Source: a virus. From it: 23,236 nt of DNA. The DNA is taken from IMG/VR virus record IMGVR_UViG_3300030099_000217, positions 5,261 through 28,496 of that record; one strand, written 5' to 3'. Numbering within the stretch: the first letter of the stretch is position 1; each line of letters opens with the position of its first letter. Under the pieces are notes generated by a model, which was given only the letters and a program-made list of their open reading frames with translations, was not told where the DNA came from and searched no databases. Shown one piece after another: positions 398 through 20,722 of the stretch. The position numbers were made by a program, and so were the translations under genes.

Positions 398-597
398 TGC
401 ATAGAAAAAGAAGATCAAAAAAGCATAAAGCTTTATTAAGAAAAAAGATAGTAGAATATTATTTTGCTAATCCACATCATAACGCATATAAAGTTATAGA
501 GGAAAAGTTTGATGTTGATGAGGGTACTATTAGAAAAGCACTAGATGACGAATTGAAAAAAAGATTTGAAAACGCACAAAGAGTAAGAAGTCTATAA
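397..597 (+). CDS. Small basic helix-turn-helix-like protein
   Basis: A 66-residue, very basic protein that opens with an Arg/Lys-rich tail (HRKRRSKKHK). Predicted helices follow, in which NAYKVIEEKFDVDEGTIRKAL fits a helix-turn-helix: helix, turn at FDVDEG, then a recognition helix. Such proteins often bind DNA and act as regulators or packaging accessories, but no specific family is recognisable. Start and stop overlap both neighbours by a single base (TAATG at 395-399 and again at 595-599), suggesting translational coupling. It lies just upstream of the NinB-like gene and the late region, so a role in the early-to-late switch is conceivable but unproven. Confidence 0.6.
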   Translation: MHRKRRSKKHKALLRKKIVEYYFANPHHNAYKVIEEKFDVDEGTIRKALDDELKKRFENAQRVRSL

Positions 598-980
598 TGA
601 AATTTGTAATAAAGGATAATAAAGATAAGCAAAGCCTGATAAACTATTTAAAGGAATTAGGTAATGATTATGTAGTAGATGTTAAGAAACAAAAAAACAA
701 TAGGTCAATGATGCAAAACAATTATTATTGGAAATGTATAGTACAAGTATTAGCAGAAGAACTAGGATATTTTAATGATGAAATGCACGATACACTAAAA
801 GTTAAATTTGCAAGTGAATGGCAAAGCATAGAAATAAACGATAAACAAATAGGATTACAAGTCATAAACAGTACCGCTAGAATGAATACTAAAGCATTCG
901 AGATATATGCAGAACATATACGCATATGGGCATTAAGTGAATTAGGTATTAGACTAATGCTACCAAATGAATATAAATAA
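597..980 (+). CDS. NinB/Orf-like recombination protein
   Basis: This 127-residue protein matches the layout of the lambda NinB (Orf) family. There is a polar N-terminal strand region, then the RSMMQNNYYW helix near residues 37-46. Next come an LGYFNDEMHDTLKVKF segment, a STARMNTKAFEIYAEHIR segment and a C-terminal LGIRLMLPNEYK. In the family these correspond to RSxxQNxxYW, the H-x-x-LK helix, the ST-x-x-L-x-x-x-F-x-x-Y helix and the LGixLPxP end. NinB/Orf binds single-stranded DNA and SSB, and assists strand-exchange recombination during phage replication. Length is close to the usual size of about 140 residues. It is the last gene before the first late-promoter motif, so it probably belongs to the early or middle operon. 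Confidence 0.75.
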   Translation: MKFVIKDNKDKQSLINYLKELGNDYVVDVKKQKNNRSMMQNNYYWKCIVQVLAEELGYFNDEMHDTLKVKFASEWQSIEINDKQIGLQVINSTARMNTKAFEIYAEHIRIWALSELGIRLMLPNEYK

Positions 981-11935: not shown

Positions 11936-11973
11936 AAATCAAATAAATATTAATTTAATCTATTATATAATAT
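11931..11973 (+). promoter_or_regulatory. Late-promoter motif, copy 3 (head module)
   Basis: The 19-mer TTTAAAAATCAAATAAATA at 11931-11949 overlaps the stop of the tape measure gene and recurs exactly at 13797-13815. Its last 11 bases form the upstream box. After 9 bases comes the core TCTATTATATAATAT at 11959-11973, ending in the AT of the ATG at 11972. It would start the transcript for the head-assembly genes, probably leaderless. Confidence 0.7.
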
Positions 11974-12487
11974 GCCTTGTAAAAAATGTAAAGACGGAAA
12001 ATATAAGTGGGGTAACACAGGAGAATGTAAGTATGCCACTAAAGACGAATGCGAAAAAGCTAATCCTAAAAAATATAGTAAAATGAAAAATACACCAACA
12101 CCATTAGGTAAAAAGACCTATGCAGAATATGAAAAAGAATTAAAAGAATTTAATTTAAGTGCAGAACCTAAATTACAAAAAATTGAATTAGCATTAGTAG
12201 ATGATATAGAAAAAATATATGGGGAAGTAATTGATAATGCTTCTAAAGCAGATAAAGCTAAAAACAATGCAATAGAAAGTATTAGAAAATTTAAACTAGA
12301 AGTTGTTAAAATTAAACAAGATAGTGCAAATGGTATAAAAAAATTAAATGAATTTAAAGATGCTGCTAAAGAATTAGGAATTGATATACCAAGTAGAATT
12401 AAAGGTTTAGAAAAAGCATTTGAAACATCAAGAAAATCTATGGAAGATTTTCAATCAGCATCTGATAAAGCTATGAAATTATTATAA
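11972..12487 (+). CDS. Cys-rich protein with shared C-terminal helical module
   Basis: A 171-residue protein in two parts. Residues 1-32 hold four cysteines (C3, C6, C19, C27) in a CxxC-x12-C-x7-C pattern around a KWGNTGECKYATKDEC segment, likely a small zinc-binding head. Residues from about 68 are a long charged helical region starting KIELALVDDIEKIYG and containing AKELGIDIPSRIKGLEKAF at 132-150. The same arrangement, KxxL then AKELG, occurs in the C-terminal parts of the next two genes, so the three appear to share a module. The gene stands directly upstream of the prohead protease, which suggests an internal head or scaffold-associated component. A segment NLSAEPK at 61-67 resembles FSAED and FSADR in the scaffold and may be a processing site. 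No named family is recognised. Confidence 0.65.
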   Translation: MPCKKCKDGKYKWGNTGECKYATKDECEKANPKKYSKMKNTPTPLGKKTYAEYEKELKEFNLSAEPKLQKIELALVDDIEKIYGEVIDNASKADKAKNNAIESIRKFKLEVVKIKQDSANGIKKLNEFKDAAKELGIDIPSRIKGLEKAFETSRKSMEDFQSASDKAMKLL

Positions 12488-12497
12488 AATAAATAAT

Positions 12498-13367
12498 ATG
12501 AAAAAGAAACCTACAAAAATAGTTGAATTAGTTATAGAAGAAAACAACGAAATGTTAGCAATAGATGCTATTAGTTTAGTATCAGCACCTGCAATAGAAC
12601 AGGACTTTGTATTTTTTGGAAAAGATAAACACAATCTTACATTTGCAAAAGTAGATGAAGATAAACGTATGTTAGTTAGTCCAGCACTAATACCTAACAA
12701 GCAAATATTTAGATATGATCCTAATACTGATAGTGAGTATTATGTATACTTTAGTAAAGATACTGTAAGACAAGCAGCAGAATTATATTTAAAACATAAC
12801 AATCACCATAAAGCAACGTATGAACATAAAGATAGAGTGTCTGGTGTATTGACTACAGAAAGCTGGATAAAAGAAGGTGACCAAGACAAATCTAAAATGT
12901 ATGGTTTTGATTTACCTAATGGAACGTGGTTTGTTAAGATGCGTATAGATAATGATGATTTATGGCAAAAGATAAAAGATGGAGAATTGAAAGGACTTAG
13001 TATAGAAGGGTACTTTGTAGATAAAATGCAAAAGATGTCAGATAATAAACCTACAAATGAAGAAATAAGACAAGCATTAAGAGAAATAATTAATCCTAAA
13101 AAAGTAAAATTAGGTAAAATTCAAGATGTTACAAAACTATATAATGTTATAAAAAAAGCTAAAGATAATATGGATGATGATTTAGCAAAAGCTAAAAGAT
13201 CAGCAATTATAGGTGATACAGAAATACAAAATTTTAATAAATTAGCTAGTGATGTAGAAAAAGCTGCTAAAGAATTAGGAGTACCGACAGGTGATTTAAA
13301 TTTACAAAAATTATTTAATGATATAAAAAGTTTTCAAAAAGAATTTAATAGTGTAATTGATATATAA
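12498..13367 (+). CDS. XkdF-type prohead serine protease with C-terminal module
   Basis: A 289-residue protein. The N-terminal 180 residues fit the XkdF-like phage serine protease family: DAISLVSAPAIEQDF at 23-37, then LVSPALIPNKQIFR, a helix with AAELYLKHNNHHKATYEHKDRV, ESWIKEG at 121-127, GTWFVKMRI at 142-150 and KGLSIEGYF at 165-173. By analogy with the family, H110 in YEHKD and S168 in LSIEG would be catalytic. Such enzymes mature the prohead by cutting the scaffold and capsid proteins. Residues 186-289 form a separate helical tail. TNEEIRQALREIINPKKVKL matches the start of the next gene, and AKELGV is at 257-262. The protease may therefore carry a scaffold-like domain that brings it into the prohead. 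The acidic scaffold and capsid genes follow. Confidence 0.75.
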   Translation: MKKKPTKIVELVIEENNEMLAIDAISLVSAPAIEQDFVFFGKDKHNLTFAKVDEDKRMLVSPALIPNKQIFRYDPNTDSEYYVYFSKDTVRQAAELYLKHNNHHKATYEHKDRVSGVLTTESWIKEGDQDKSKMYGFDLPNGTWFVKMRIDNDDLWQKIKDGELKGLSIEGYFVDKMQKMSDNKPTNEEIRQALREIINPKKVKLGKIQDVTKLYNVIKKAKDNMDDDLAKAKRSAIIGDTEIQNFNKLASDVEKAAKELGVPTGDLNLQKLFNDIKSFQKEFNSVIDI

Positions 13368-13378
13368 AATAACATAAC

Positions 13379-13801
13379 ATGAAAAAGAAAGTAACAGATC
13401 AAGATATAATTAGTGCTTTAAATGAGATAATACAAGAATCTAATAAACCACAAAAGGTAGAGTTAGGGTTAGCAGATGATTTAAAAAAATTAAATACAGA
13501 AGCTGAAAAAATTACTAAAACTGTTAATAAAGATAGTAATGATTTATCAAAATTATTGCAAGAATTAAAAGATATATCTGATGATTTTAATAAGATTAAT
13601 GATAGAAGAAGAGATAATATTAAAAAAGGTAAATCTACTTTTAAAGAATTAAATACACTATTAGACAAAACACAAAAACAAGCTAAAGAACTTGGTATAG
13701 CACCAAGAGATATACCTAATTTTAGTAAAAGTTCTAAAATAAATAGTGATTTAAGAGCATCAGTAAATGATATACAAAAATATTCTGATATAAAAATTTA
13801 A
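13379..13801 (+). CDS. Free-standing copy of the protease C-terminal module
   Basis: A 140-residue charged helical protein without membrane segments. Its N-terminus (TDQDIISALNEIIQESNKPQKVEL) parallels residues 186-205 of the protease upstream (TNEEIRQALREIINPKKVKL). QAKELGIAPRDI near residues 101-112 parallels AKELGV in the protease and AKELGI in the Cys-rich protein. It therefore looks like the protease tail made as a separate protein, the way some phages make a scaffold from an internal start of the protease gene. Here it has arisen by duplication instead of by an internal start. A scaffolding or protease-partner role is the natural inference. It is 11 bases downstream of the protease gene, and its stop overlaps the 19-mer of the next promoter motif. 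Confidence 0.6.
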   Translation: MKKKVTDQDIISALNEIIQESNKPQKVELGLADDLKKLNTEAEKITKTVNKDSNDLSKLLQELKDISDDFNKINDRRRDNIKKGKSTFKELNTLLDKTQKQAKELGIAPRDIPNFSKSSKINSDLRASVNDIQKYSDIKI

Positions 13802-13863: not shown

Positions 13864-14562
13864 ATGGACATAAAAAAACAAATCAAAATAGCTTTAGGAC
13901 TTGATACAGAAGAAGTAGTATTAGGCTTTCAAGCTAAAACAGAAGATGGTACTATAATAGTATCTACTGCTGAAGAATTAGAAAGCGGGGTGGACATCAG
14001 CGTTTTGACCGAGGATGGAACGACTATAAAATTACCACCAGGAACGTATAAACTTGACACAGGCGTATCTTTTAGAGTTGAAGAAGAAGGTATTGTTGGT
14101 GAAGTTATAGAGTCAGAAACAGAAGAAGAAGATACTCCAAAAGAGGAAATGGCAGAAGAAGATGATAAAAAAGAATATGATGAAGAAGCAGATGTAGCTG
14201 ATTGGGAAGGTATGGAAAAAAGAATCAAAAACCTAGAAGATGCAGTAGCAGATCTTAAAAGAGAAATAGGAGAAACAGGAGATGTTGAAGAAATGGCAGA
14301 AGAAACAGTAGAAGAAACTACAGAAGAGCCATCTAAAACTCCTAAAACAATTAAAACAACTGAAGTAGTTGAATTTTCAGCAGAAGATGAAATTAAAAAA
14401 CTGAAAGAAGAAAACGAAAAACTAAAAACTGAATTAGCAGAAAGTCCAGCAGACGCACCTGTTAATACAAATAAATTTAGTGCAGATAGACCAACACTAA
14501 ACAGAAAACAATATAACAAACTTTCTAAACAAGAAAGATTTTTATATAACTTAAATAAATAA
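13864..14562 (+). CDS. Acidic scaffold protein
   Basis: A 232-residue, very acidic protein immediately upstream of the major capsid gene, the usual place for a scaffold. Residues about 18-82 form a beta domain (LGFQAKTEDGTIIVSTAEELESG, VSVLTEDGT-like repeats, LPPGTYKLDTGVSFRVEEEGIVGEV). I associate this domain with scaffold proteins of Bacteroidota phages. A Glu/Asp-rich stretch (85-115) and two coiled-coil segments follow (MEKRIKNLEDAVADLKREIGE and EIKKLKEENEKLKTEL). FSAED at 171-175 and FSADR at 205-209 are similar and may be cleavage sites for the XkdF-type protease. Codons 40-54 (13981-14022) are much richer in G+C than their surroundings. The gene is driven by promoter copy 4 with a 24-base leader. 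Confidence 0.65.
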   Translation: MDIKKQIKIALGLDTEEVVLGFQAKTEDGTIIVSTAEELESGVDISVLTEDGTTIKLPPGTYKLDTGVSFRVEEEGIVGEVIESETEEEDTPKEEMAEEDDKKEYDEEADVADWEGMEKRIKNLEDAVADLKREIGETGDVEEMAEETVEETTEEPSKTPKTIKTTEVVEFSAEDEIKKLKEENEKLKTELAESPADAPVNTNKFSADRPTLNRKQYNKLSKQERFLYNLNK

Positions 14563-14587: not shown

Positions 14588-15505
14588 ATGGCATTTAACG
14601 TAACAAGTAACTTTGCAGGTAAGGCAGCTGGTTTTTACATCAGTGCTGCACTTAAAGAAGCAAAATCATTAGATTACTTATCTATGATAGAAAATATCAA
14701 GTATAAGTCAAACATTCAAAGAATGGCAGGTTCTTCAGTAGTTAAGGATGCAACTTGTGATTTTTCAGATGCAGGTACTTTAGACCTTACTGAGAAAGTA
14801 TTAGAACCTAAGAACTTACAAATTAACATTGATTTGTGTAAGAAAAACCTTTTAAGTTCGTGGGAAGCATTACAAATGAGAGCAGGGGCAGGAGCACCAC
14901 CTCCAGCATCTTTTGAAGATTATGTAATTTCTTACATGGGTGATATTATAGCACAAGCAACAGAAGAAAGTATCTGGAGTGGAGTAAATGGAACAACAGG
15001 AGAATTTACAGGATTCTTAGGTGCAGCAGTTGGTTACTTATTACCAGGTGTTGACGCAACTGTAATACAATCATCAGCTTCAGGTGCTTATACAGCAGCT
15101 AACATTATTGCAAATCTTCAAACTTTGACAACTGATATGGCGGCTAATGTACCAGCTATATTAGGAAAAGAGGATTTACATATATACATGAATAACAAGA
15201 CATACGCTATGTACATTTCAGCAGTATCTACATTAGGATATGTTAATGCTTACAATATGAATGGAGATTATGAACCTGTATTTGAAGGATATAAAATAGC
15301 AGTATGTCCTGGTATGGCAGACAATCAACTAGTAGCAGCAGAAAAGTCGAACTGTTATTTTGGGACGGATTTACTTTCAGATGCAACTAGAATTACTCTT
15401 ATGGATATGGCTAACCTTGATGGTTCAGACAATATGAGATTAGTAGCAAGATATTCAGCAGGGGTTCAAACAGGAGTTGGAGCAGATATAGTAAGACAAT
15501 CATAA
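14588..15505 (+). CDS. Major capsid protein
   Basis: A 305-residue soluble protein following the scaffold gene. Features fitting an HK97-fold capsid protein are an N-terminal helix with AGFYISAALKEAKSLDYLSMIENIKYKSNIQRM, and a beta region TCDFSDAGTLDLTEKVLEPKNLQINIDLCKKNLLSSWEAL. A long backbone helix follows (SFEDYVISYMGDIIAQATEESIWSG), and a C-terminal part has YMNNKTYAMYISAVSTLGYVN, YEPVFEGYKIAVCPGM and NMRLVARYSAGVQTGVGADIV. That last block matches the familiar order of P-loop and A-domain segments in capsid proteins of Bacteroidota phages. No long N-terminal delta domain is present, consistent with a separate scaffold. Codon choice is slightly less AT-biased than in its neighbours, as expected for a highly expressed gene. 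A strong terminator follows. Confidence 0.8.
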   Translation: MAFNVTSNFAGKAAGFYISAALKEAKSLDYLSMIENIKYKSNIQRMAGSSVVKDATCDFSDAGTLDLTEKVLEPKNLQINIDLCKKNLLSSWEALQMRAGAGAPPPASFEDYVISYMGDIIAQATEESIWSGVNGTTGEFTGFLGAAVGYLLPGVDATVIQSSASGAYTAANIIANLQTLTTDMAANVPAILGKEDLHIYMNNKTYAMYISAVSTLGYVNAYNMNGDYEPVFEGYKIAVCPGMADNQLVAAEKSNCYFGTDLLSDATRITLMDMANLDGSDNMRLVARYSAGVQTGVGADIVRQS

Positions 15506-18673: not shown

Positions 18674-20722
18674 ATGAAAGAAATCATTAATATTAATTTA
18701 GGTACAGAAACTGCTCCACAAGTACAAGAAGTACGTGGTAAGGACTATATAGAATATGGTACTGATAATTGGAAAAACTTATACCCACAGTTTCTTATAG
18801 ATCTTTATTACAATTCTAGCACAAATGCAGCTATTATTAACGCAACTGCTGAAATGATAGCAGGTGAAGATATTGTAATAGATGATGAAGATGAACGTAA
18901 TTTAGATGCTATTGTTAAGTTAAAGCAATTTATGGCAGAACCTAATTCTAATGAAACTTTACATGAGTTAATTAAAAAGGTTTCTTTTGATTTTAAACTA
19001 CAAGGTGCATTTGCTTTAAATATAGTATGGTCAAGAGATAGAACACAAATAGCAGAAATATATCACGTGCCTGTAGAAAAGATTAGATGTGAACGACCAG
19101 ATGAAATGGGTAAAGTTAAAGGTTATTATATAAGTGCAGATTGGGCAAATACAAGAACTAACAAACCTTATAGAGTACCAGCATTTAATCCTAATGATAG
19201 AACATCAGCTAATCAAATTTTATATAGTGGATTATATTCGCCTAATATGAACTCTTATTATACACCTGATTATTTAGCTGGTAATAATTGGAGTTTAATT
19301 GACCAAAAAGTATCTGAATATCATCTTAATAATATAACAAATGGGTTTAGTGGTTCTTATTTTATATCTTTTGCGAATGGTGTACCTACACAAGAGGAAC
19401 GATTCCAAATAGAGCAAAGTTTAAAAGAGAAATTTACAGGTAGTGAATCAGCAGGTCGTTTTGTACTTACATTTAGCGAGGATAGAACTAGAGTACCAGA
19501 AATAACACCTATTACTATGGATAATGCAGATAAGCAATATCTTGCATTACAGGAACTTTTAGTACAAAACATACTTACAGCTCACCGAGTTACAAGTCCT
19601 ATGCTTATGGGTATTAAAAACGATACAGGACTAGGTTCTAATGTAGATGAACTTAATGCAGCAGGAAACTACTACTTAAATACAGTTTGTATGCCTTATC
19701 AGAATCATATCATTAAGGTACTTAGAAGATTGTTTAGAGTTAATAATATGGATATGCCTATTAGTTTCGTACAGATTAAACCAATTACTTTAGAATTTAC
19801 ATCAGAAGATTTAAAAGCAGTAATGGAGCAAGATGAAATTAGAGAAGAATTAGGATTACCACCATTAAATGAATCTGTAGAAGTAAGAGAGGATTTTGCT
19901 AAAGTAGGTAATATTGATGGTAAACCTGTATTTGATACTAAAGAAGAAGCATTAGCACAAGCTGAAAAGATGGGGTGTGAAGGTTATCACGAACACGAAT
20001 ACGAAGGTAAGACGGTTTATATGGCGTGTGAAAGTCATGATGAAGCTATGGGTTTTGAGAATACAGAACTATCTAAATTTATAGAAGAATATGGTGAAGA
20101 TATACCAGAAGATTGTGAATTAATACATGAAGAAAAAGTAGAAGATGAACATATTGAATTTGATTTTGAACATATATTAAATGATGTAGCAAATGAAAAA
20201 GTAGAACTAGCTAAAACAGGCAAAGCATTACCAGGTAGAAAATCAGAACAAGATGGTATATCTAAAAAGACTTATGATTATTTTAGAGTAAGATATGTAT
20301 ATACAGAAGATAATTTTTTAGTAAATAAGACAGGACAAAGAAGAAAGTTTTGTAGACAAATGATGGGTGCTTCAAAAAGTGGTAAAATGTATAGAAAAGA
20401 AGATATACAAAGAATGACGGATATGGTTGTAAATGATTACTATTACAGTAAAAGACAAAAAAGAAATATAGGATGGGGACCTAAAGGTGCTTTAAAATAT
20501 GATATTTTTAAATATAAGGGAGGTGGAAATTGTCAGCATTTTTGGCTAAGACAAATATATAAAACTACTTTAGGAAAATCTAATACAACTAAAATAGAAG
20601 ATGCAGATCTAATAGGATATACTAAAGCTAGAAGCGAAGGGTTTACTGCTGAAAAAAATAGTGTATTAGTAGCAAAACCACCTAAAAGAATGAAGAATAA
20701 AGGATTTTTAAAACCAAGATAA
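18674..20722 (+). CDS. Portal protein with C-terminal Cys/His extension
   Basis: A 682-residue protein in three parts. Residues 1 to about 405 are the portal, the dodecameric ring through which DNA enters the head. It has DNWKNLYPQFLIDLYYNSSTNAAIINATAEMIAGE, LQGAFALNIVWSRD, EIYHVPVEKIRCERPDEMGKVKGYYIS and LTAHRVTSPMLMGI with GLGSNVDELNAAGNYY. Residues 413-460 form a small module with C435, H439, H441, C452 and H455 in MGCEGYHEHEYEGKTVYMAC, probably metal-binding. The end (about 530-682) has RYVYTEDNF, a second Cys/His set (C560 in RKFCRQMM; C620 and H622 in GGGNCQHFW), GWGPKGALKYDIFKYKGG and a basic tail. I associate such ends with portal or capsid-associated proteins of Bacteroidota phages, without a known function. 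Portals usually have 400-550 residues. Confidence 0.85.
   Translation: MKEIININLGTETAPQVQEVRGKDYIEYGTDNWKNLYPQFLIDLYYNSSTNAAIINATAEMIAGEDIVIDDEDERNLDAIVKLKQFMAEPNSNETLHELIKKVSFDFKLQGAFALNIVWSRDRTQIAEIYHVPVEKIRCERPDEMGKVKGYYISADWANTRTNKPYRVPAFNPNDRTSANQILYSGLYSPNMNSYYTPDYLAGNNWSLIDQKVSEYHLNNITNGFSGSYFISFANGVPTQEERFQIEQSLKEKFTGSESAGRFVLTFSEDRTRVPEITPITMDNADKQYLALQELLVQNILTAHRVTSPMLMGIKNDTGLGSNVDELNAAGNYYLNTVCMPYQNHIIKVLRRLFRVNNMDMPISFVQIKPITLEFTSEDLKAVMEQDEIREELGLPPLNESVEVREDFAKVGNIDGKPVFDTKEEALAQAEKMGCEGYHEHEYEGKTVYMACESHDEAMGFENTELSKFIEEYGEDIPEDCELIHEEKVEDEHIEFDFEHILNDVANEKVELAKTGKALPGRKSEQDGISKKTYDYFRVRYVYTEDNFLVNKTGQRRKFCRQMMGASKSGKMYRKEDIQRMTDMVVNDYYYSKRQKRNIGWGPKGALKYDIFKYKGGGNCQHFWLRQIYKTTLGKSNTTKIEDADLIGYTKARSEGFTAEKNSVLVAKPPKRMKNKGFLKPR

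Follow-up and report, generated by a model that had tools for sequence, protein, structure and literature searches.

Three consecutive genes of an uncultured marine phage, encoding a Cys-rich protein, a prohead protease and a 140-residue protein, end in homologous helical modules, and modules of this kind are exchanged between viruses and between gene positions. As judged from the aligned sequences, the constant element is a short leader helix with a K-[VI]-E-L-[GAS] junction, rather than the helical module. In the papers searched we found no account of such exchange behaviour. The window, the whole stretch of DNA analysed (23,236 nt), covers bases 5261-28496 of a 28.5-kb virus record (IMG/VR IMGVR_UViG_3300030099_000217). 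The local gene order is a tape-measure-like protein, the Cys protein, the protease, the 140-residue protein, a scaffold-like protein and the capsid, with the portal further on. The protease scored 64.1 bits against the curated Pfam cut-off of 24 and is thus a member of Peptidase_S78_2 (XkdF); it also matched the PHROG head maturation protease. The nearest isolates are the Nonlabens phages P12024L and P12024S, and going by these the hosts of such marine phages are probably Bacteroidetes; no host or provirus relatives were found in the genome collection searched. The features of this gene block are as follows.

11972-12178, plus strand: leader 1, Cys head and helix TYAEYEKELKEFNLSAEPKLQ
12179-12193, plus strand: junction 1, K-I-E-L-A
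12194-12484, plus strand: module 1, helix 74-135, turn at AKELG, helix 141-170; type found as a standalone in L001 and as a protease tail in L108
12498-13031, plus strand: XkdF-type prohead protease domain, Peptidase_S78_2 at residues 48-172, E 1.7e-17
13047-13100, plus strand: leader 2, C-terminal helix of the protease, PTNEEIRQALREIINPK, retained by module-free relatives
13101-13115, plus strand: junction 2, K-V-K-L-G
13116-13364, plus strand: module 2; L091 has the same type as its protease tail, L124 as a standalone gene
13379-13453, plus strand: leader 3, MKKKVTDQDIISALNEIIQESNKPQ, a near copy of the protease C-terminal helix; helix 7-21
13454-13468, plus strand: junction 3, K-V-E-L-G, linker between helices, block pLDDT 63
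13469-13798, plus strand: module 3, helix 29-104 and helix 115-136; type shared with protease tails in L002 and L081
13864-14562, plus strand: scaffold-like protein, leader MDIKKQIKIALGL... and a conserved C-terminal helix; no homology to the modules
14588-15505, plus strand: major capsid protein, Phage_capsid 1.6e-4, just below the curated cut-off

A sequence-only reading had described a single module joined in turn to a Cys head, a protease and hardly anything within the head-assembly gene block, and this description was confirmed. The motifs lie at residue 70 of the 171-residue Cys-rich protein (KIELA), residue 202 of the 289-residue protease (KVKLG) and residue 26 of the 140-residue protein (KVELG), and AKELG[IV] follows 62, 55 and 76 residues downstream, respectively; the protease and the 140-residue protein also share T-[DN]-x-[DE]-I-x-x-A-L-x-E-I-I upstream of the motif. 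BLASTP among the three proteins gave pairwise E values of 7e-5, 3e-5 and 5e-5. Smith-Waterman comparison gave z = 8.7, 6.7 and 6.6, with the observed score reached by none of 500 shuffles, and z = 3.2-3.4 remained when both motifs were masked. Coiled-coil controls, the tape-measure-like protein and the scaffold, gave z of -1 to 0.9 except for the pair of the 140-residue protein and the scaffold (3.2). A hold-out HMM, trained on 96 modules from other viruses with every type near those of the window left out, matched the three proteins at 4.5e-18, 1.2e-16 and 3.3e-10 and matched no scaffold protein when run against the scaffold family. The relation thus stands above the level of Lys/Glu helices in both shuffles and profile comparison, which rules out chance likeness, and the similarity of the three proteins is true homology. 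The module of the 140-residue protein is 92% identical to the protease tail of L002. The Cys head of the window, which the sequence-only reading called zinc-finger-like, has its cysteines at C3, C6, C19 and C27, a putative Cys4 metal site, and all four are conserved in the heads listed; the N-terminal blocks were predicted with a pLDDT of 86-88.

Every copy has the same architecture, a leader helix followed by K-[VI]-E-L-[GAS] and a variable module. The junction logo reads K[VI]EL[GAS], with T, N, E or K at times in the P1' position, and it is flanked by variable leaders before and variable modules after it. In two AlphaFold models the junction was a low-confidence linker between helices. Modules extend for a median of 98 residues past the motif (~100), and 85% of them contain [KR]-x-[LIM]-G. 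A constant short leader before a variable body is the arrangement expected of proteins that work like the T4 internal proteins.

Module copy number varies among relatives. In most relatives from the Cys-head search (L028-L079 and others) a single gene encodes a direct fusion of Cys head and protease, and in this arrangement the head is the N-terminal part of the protease. Many of these fused genes stop ~25 residues past the protease domain with a helix such as PTDEEILSALNEIINENQTK and without a module. In window-like viruses the Cys-protease gene is split, and any piece may bear a module, giving Cys-module, protease-module and standalone forms. Among 155 complete loci, 66 had no module copy, 21 had one, 42 had two, 24 had three and 2 had four. 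Two loci (L060:4832-6167 and L063:4802-6137) carry three standalone modules after a fused Cys-protease, with divergent leaders and the junctions KLDLS/KLELS, KINLS and KLNLS. The module profile also gave weak matches to the upstream tape-measure-like gene at E of about 0.001-0.005 (L121:4489-5964, L151:3512-4987, L127:4435-5964, L064:747-2504), which could be coiled-coil noise or another module copy.

The sequence-only reading had assigned the helical module itself a scaffold or prohead-targeting role. This assignment was not supported, because the 66 module-free relatives have the same protease and scaffold genes and because one module type gives way to another almost freely against a background of otherwise constant head genes. 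The leader is the better targeting candidate, since its helix occurs without a module in the fused Cys-protease and since helix and junction recur in the portal. The leaders are amphipathic, although the hydrophobic-moment test cannot tell targeting helices from ordinary amphipathic ones. On these sequence grounds we have moderate confidence that the leader directs proteins into the prohead core.

Similar sequences occur in other head proteins of the window.

12636-12647, plus strand: N-L-T-[LF]-A linker, conserved, where the protease domain begins; possible site of autocleavage
14368-14379, plus strand: V-E-F-S in the scaffold, a candidate cleavage site that is conserved amid variable flanks
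18674-20197, plus strand: portal protein with C-terminal leader helix FDFEHILNDVANE; gene 18674-20722
20198-20212, plus strand: portal junction K-V-E-L-A; helix and junction form residues 495-513
20213-20719, plus strand: C-terminal conserved domain with VRYVY / GGGNCQHFW, downstream of the portal junction; unmatched in Pfam

A helix followed by K-[VI]-[EQ]-[LF]-A was found at the portal C-terminus of 51 of 57 relatives, compared with 3.0±1.7 in shuffled sequences. A near match, KLELA, is kept in the portal (L360) of a virus that has a fused Cys-protease and no module (L114, same contig). A DUF3721-like stretch (E 6e-6, just under the cut-off) was observed at portal residues 420-455, in the C-terminal extension. 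The scaffold conserves the pattern aliphatic-x-[LF]-[GAS] as VVEFS, and at the N-terminal linker of the protease the pattern is fixed as NLT[LF]A. In gp01 of Nonlabens phage P12024L (L153:179-1228), a single polypeptide comprises the protease and a scaffold-like beta domain, linked through a leader helix and AVKLG. Two further candidates were rejected: KIVEL in the N-terminal part of the protease, which aligns with a beta-strand-like region that reads KTYQISY in the Nonlabens phage, and an N-terminal cleavage of the major capsid protein, since the motif density is low in capsid proteins.

Herpesvirus assemblins, which have their fold class in common with prohead proteases, cleave at sites with an aliphatic residue at P3 and a small one at P1', and T4 gp21 also requires an aliphatic P3. 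The conservation of KVEL at the protein level between leaders and modules that are themselves unrelated, its position in a linker, its recurrence in the portal and the similar sequences in the protease linker, the scaffold and P12024L all argue for a protease site. Cleavage by the prohead protease at KVEL is therefore somewhat probable, as far as sequence and structural models indicate, and the VRYVY/GGGNCQHFW domain of the portal may be released by the protease.

The module types are numerous and move among gene positions. The 231 module copies of the enlarged set of relatives fall into 97 types, with a Chao1 estimate of about 158. Among the 50 multi-member types, 37 are spread over at least two gene positions, and 8 of them over all three. 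Same-type pairs lay in different positions in 202 of 352 cases, compared with 223±9 for random labels; the corresponding values in the first set were 61 of 99 and 65.4±4.6, and in these pairs the modules were 66% and the leaders 32% identical. A tree of 100 modules required at least 38 position changes, compared with 43.5±2.8 with shuffled labels. Leaders thus belong to the gene position whereas modules do not, and position is near random with respect to type. The finding that no type recurred within a genome (0 of 85) was not taken as avoidance, since only about two cases are expected by chance.

The types are also replaced rapidly. Only 6 of 74 virus pairs with a protease-domain DNA identity of at least 95% had the same tail type, whereas the scaffold and capsid of these pairs showed 92% and 89% protein identity, respectively. 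The median dN/dS within types was 0.34 over 313 pairs, which indicates purifying selection. Each type is kept functional, yet it is replaced faster than anything measured around the modules, from which we infer a trait under varying selection, not a neutral filler.

We propose that the three genes would be interchangeable cargo cassettes for the phage head. The short amphipathic leader helix would take each product into the prohead core, and the neighbouring XkdF-type prohead protease would cut K-[VI]-E-L-[GAS] after L. The long-helix-plus-hairpin module would thereby be freed inside the head, remain with the DNA and probably be ejected into the host. The exchange of modules, seen between viruses as well as between gene positions, would proceed by recombination within the 12-15 nt KVEL junction and near the stop codon. 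It would keep at least 97 types in circulation, with the modules most plausibly acting, like the T4 internal proteins, on variable host factors such as defence systems. We see the whole model, with a targeting leader, a cleaved KVEL and a swapped, packaged and probably ejected module, as evenly poised between right and wrong. Ejection with an anti-host role, which is suggested by analogy, is its more tentative part.

Counting against cargo, 66 of the 155 relatives do without any module, and a core or structural role would suit the single module fold no less. All modules share one fold type, a long helix, the AKELG turn and a second helix, and the fold predicted for two different module types was coiled-coil-like. 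When 103 modules were searched against Pfam, PHROGs and PADLOC, only scattered coiled-coil matches were obtained and none was specific; no match to the T4 internal protein family was found in Pfam or PHROGs, and the best of the PADLOC matches among 74 families had E 2.6e-6, with no anti-defence homologue. Profile matches to solved structures (designed bundles, haemagglutinin HA2 and similar) were judged compositional and set aside. Foldseek gave no match with E below 1 in the PDB, and the structural neighbours in BFVD were only uncharacterised phage proteins. No described family matches the module.

The modules might instead be extra pieces of the prohead core, long helical hairpins that co-assemble with the scaffold and are then degraded or expelled; their sequence would matter little, so that the types could be exchanged and could drift freely. 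The coiled-coil-like fold predicted in two different types, the position of the module genes next to the protease, scaffold and capsid genes and the copy number of 0 to 4 across the complete loci would all agree with this. A true core protein should, however, vary in step with the scaffold and capsid proteins that it partners; module-free viruses are common, and the low dN/dS together with near-total type turnover beside ~90% identical scaffold and capsid proteins is unlike neutral filler. We therefore consider a core role rather unlikely. It is quite improbable that the modules are instead sensed by a host defence that watches late head proteins, in which case type turnover would reflect escape and not effector delivery. 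Turnover combined with purifying selection within types would fit such frequency-dependent selection, but the simplest escape is loss of the module, as in the module-free viruses that exist, and the gain of one to four copies would be left unexplained.

The borders of exchange bear on how cargo modules would be swapped. Where leaders matched and modules differed, DNA identity fell from about 0.8-0.9 to about 0.5 at +12 nt, after the K-V-E-L codons, and the same module behind different leaders gave the mirror-image pattern. The 3' border lies at the stop codon or just after it. The KVEL codons show a strong synonymous bias in these AT-rich genes (GAG 0.71 versus 0.14, AAG 0.51 versus 0.19, TTG 0.32 versus 0.08); the bias is highest exactly at the junction, and the excess of GAG occurs in every leader group. 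This bias indicates that the junction is constrained as DNA too. We read it as the trace of repeated exchange that homogenises the junction stretch; a recombinase site is also possible. Two encoded proteins are possible agents of exchange, a recombination protein of NinG type (E 8e-13) and a borderline match to NinB; they were found at L374:3229-3645, on the window contig upstream of the window, and at window positions 597-980.

KVEL might then be a DNA recombination site only, a homology anchor or recombinase site with no role for the protease, given that breakpoints fall at KVEL, that the codon bias peaks there and that the genome encodes the NinG-type protein. We give this little credence, because the motif is conserved as protein through 69 different 12-nt spellings and because it is found again in the portal, which showed no exchange of modules and a weaker codon bias (GAG in 12 of 42). 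What we tentatively suggest is a dedicated cassette-exchange system in which one 12-15 nt sequence would serve both as the DNA swap point and as the site where the prohead protease releases the module from its targeting leader. With such a dual-use junction, a new module would arrive in frame, targeted and cleavable in several genes, including that of the protease itself. That the resemblance is a chance likeness of Lys/Glu helices, or the mosaic an artefact of metagenome assembly, can hardly be entertained: although the composition is of low complexity and the contigs were built from environmental reads, chance is already refuted by the shuffle and hold-out tests, the stretches shared at crossovers span only ~12-15 nt, which is short for assembly-graph joins, and identical leader-module combinations occur in contigs of independent data sets (e.g. 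L005, L009, L276).

If the cargo model is true, these marine phages have a large and fast-traded repertoire of packaged proteins, which would have been overlooked because each is a small coiled-coil-like 'hypothetical protein'. It would be a source of possible counter-defence proteins and would provide a defined protease cleavage rule, and the leader with KVELG would be a natural tag for loading cargo into a phage head. Modular exchange extends here into the C-terminus of an assembly protease.

The capsid targeting sequence (CTS) leaders and diverse internal proteins of T4 provide a precedent (PMC3012670; PMC12373910). IPI, IPII and IPIII likewise have a common N-terminal leader on otherwise different small proteins, several per genome, from which the prohead protease removes the leader, and they vary strongly between related phages. 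We found no sequence relation between them and the modules. The T4 proteins vary in fold, whereas the modules have one helical fold; this is the main point against a direct T4 parallel, and it keeps a core or scaffold role in contention. Unlike the T4 proteins, the modules swap gene positions, even onto the protease, and their packaging, cleavage and ejection are what we infer here.

As far as the cited accounts go, the phage SPN3US resembles the present system in having an extra C-terminal protease segment and a processed portal. The C-terminal propeptide of its protease gp245 was proposed to be prohead-targeting (PMC7411985), the protease favours serine at P1' and processes the portal, and in SPN3US/phiKZ-type phages the portal and ejection proteins are processed by one protease (PMC7411985, PMC10052503). 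It differs in being a giant myovirus with another cleavage motif, and those accounts describe no exchangeable cassettes. The domain of XkdF / Peptidase_S78_2 proteases is shared, and the exchangeable C-terminal tail and the Cys head are additions here. P12024L and P12024S have homologues of the protease and capsid and a scaffold-like domain behind the VKLG join, but their protease and scaffold form one gene, in which no Cys head or module was recognised. Polymorphic toxin systems also combine a constant N-terminal part with an exchangeable C-terminal cassette, whereas the present cassettes lie in a phage head context, have one conserved fold and are accompanied by no toxin or immunity gene that we found. 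The modules would be of a known kind, polymorphic packaged head proteins, whose mode of exchange is unusual.
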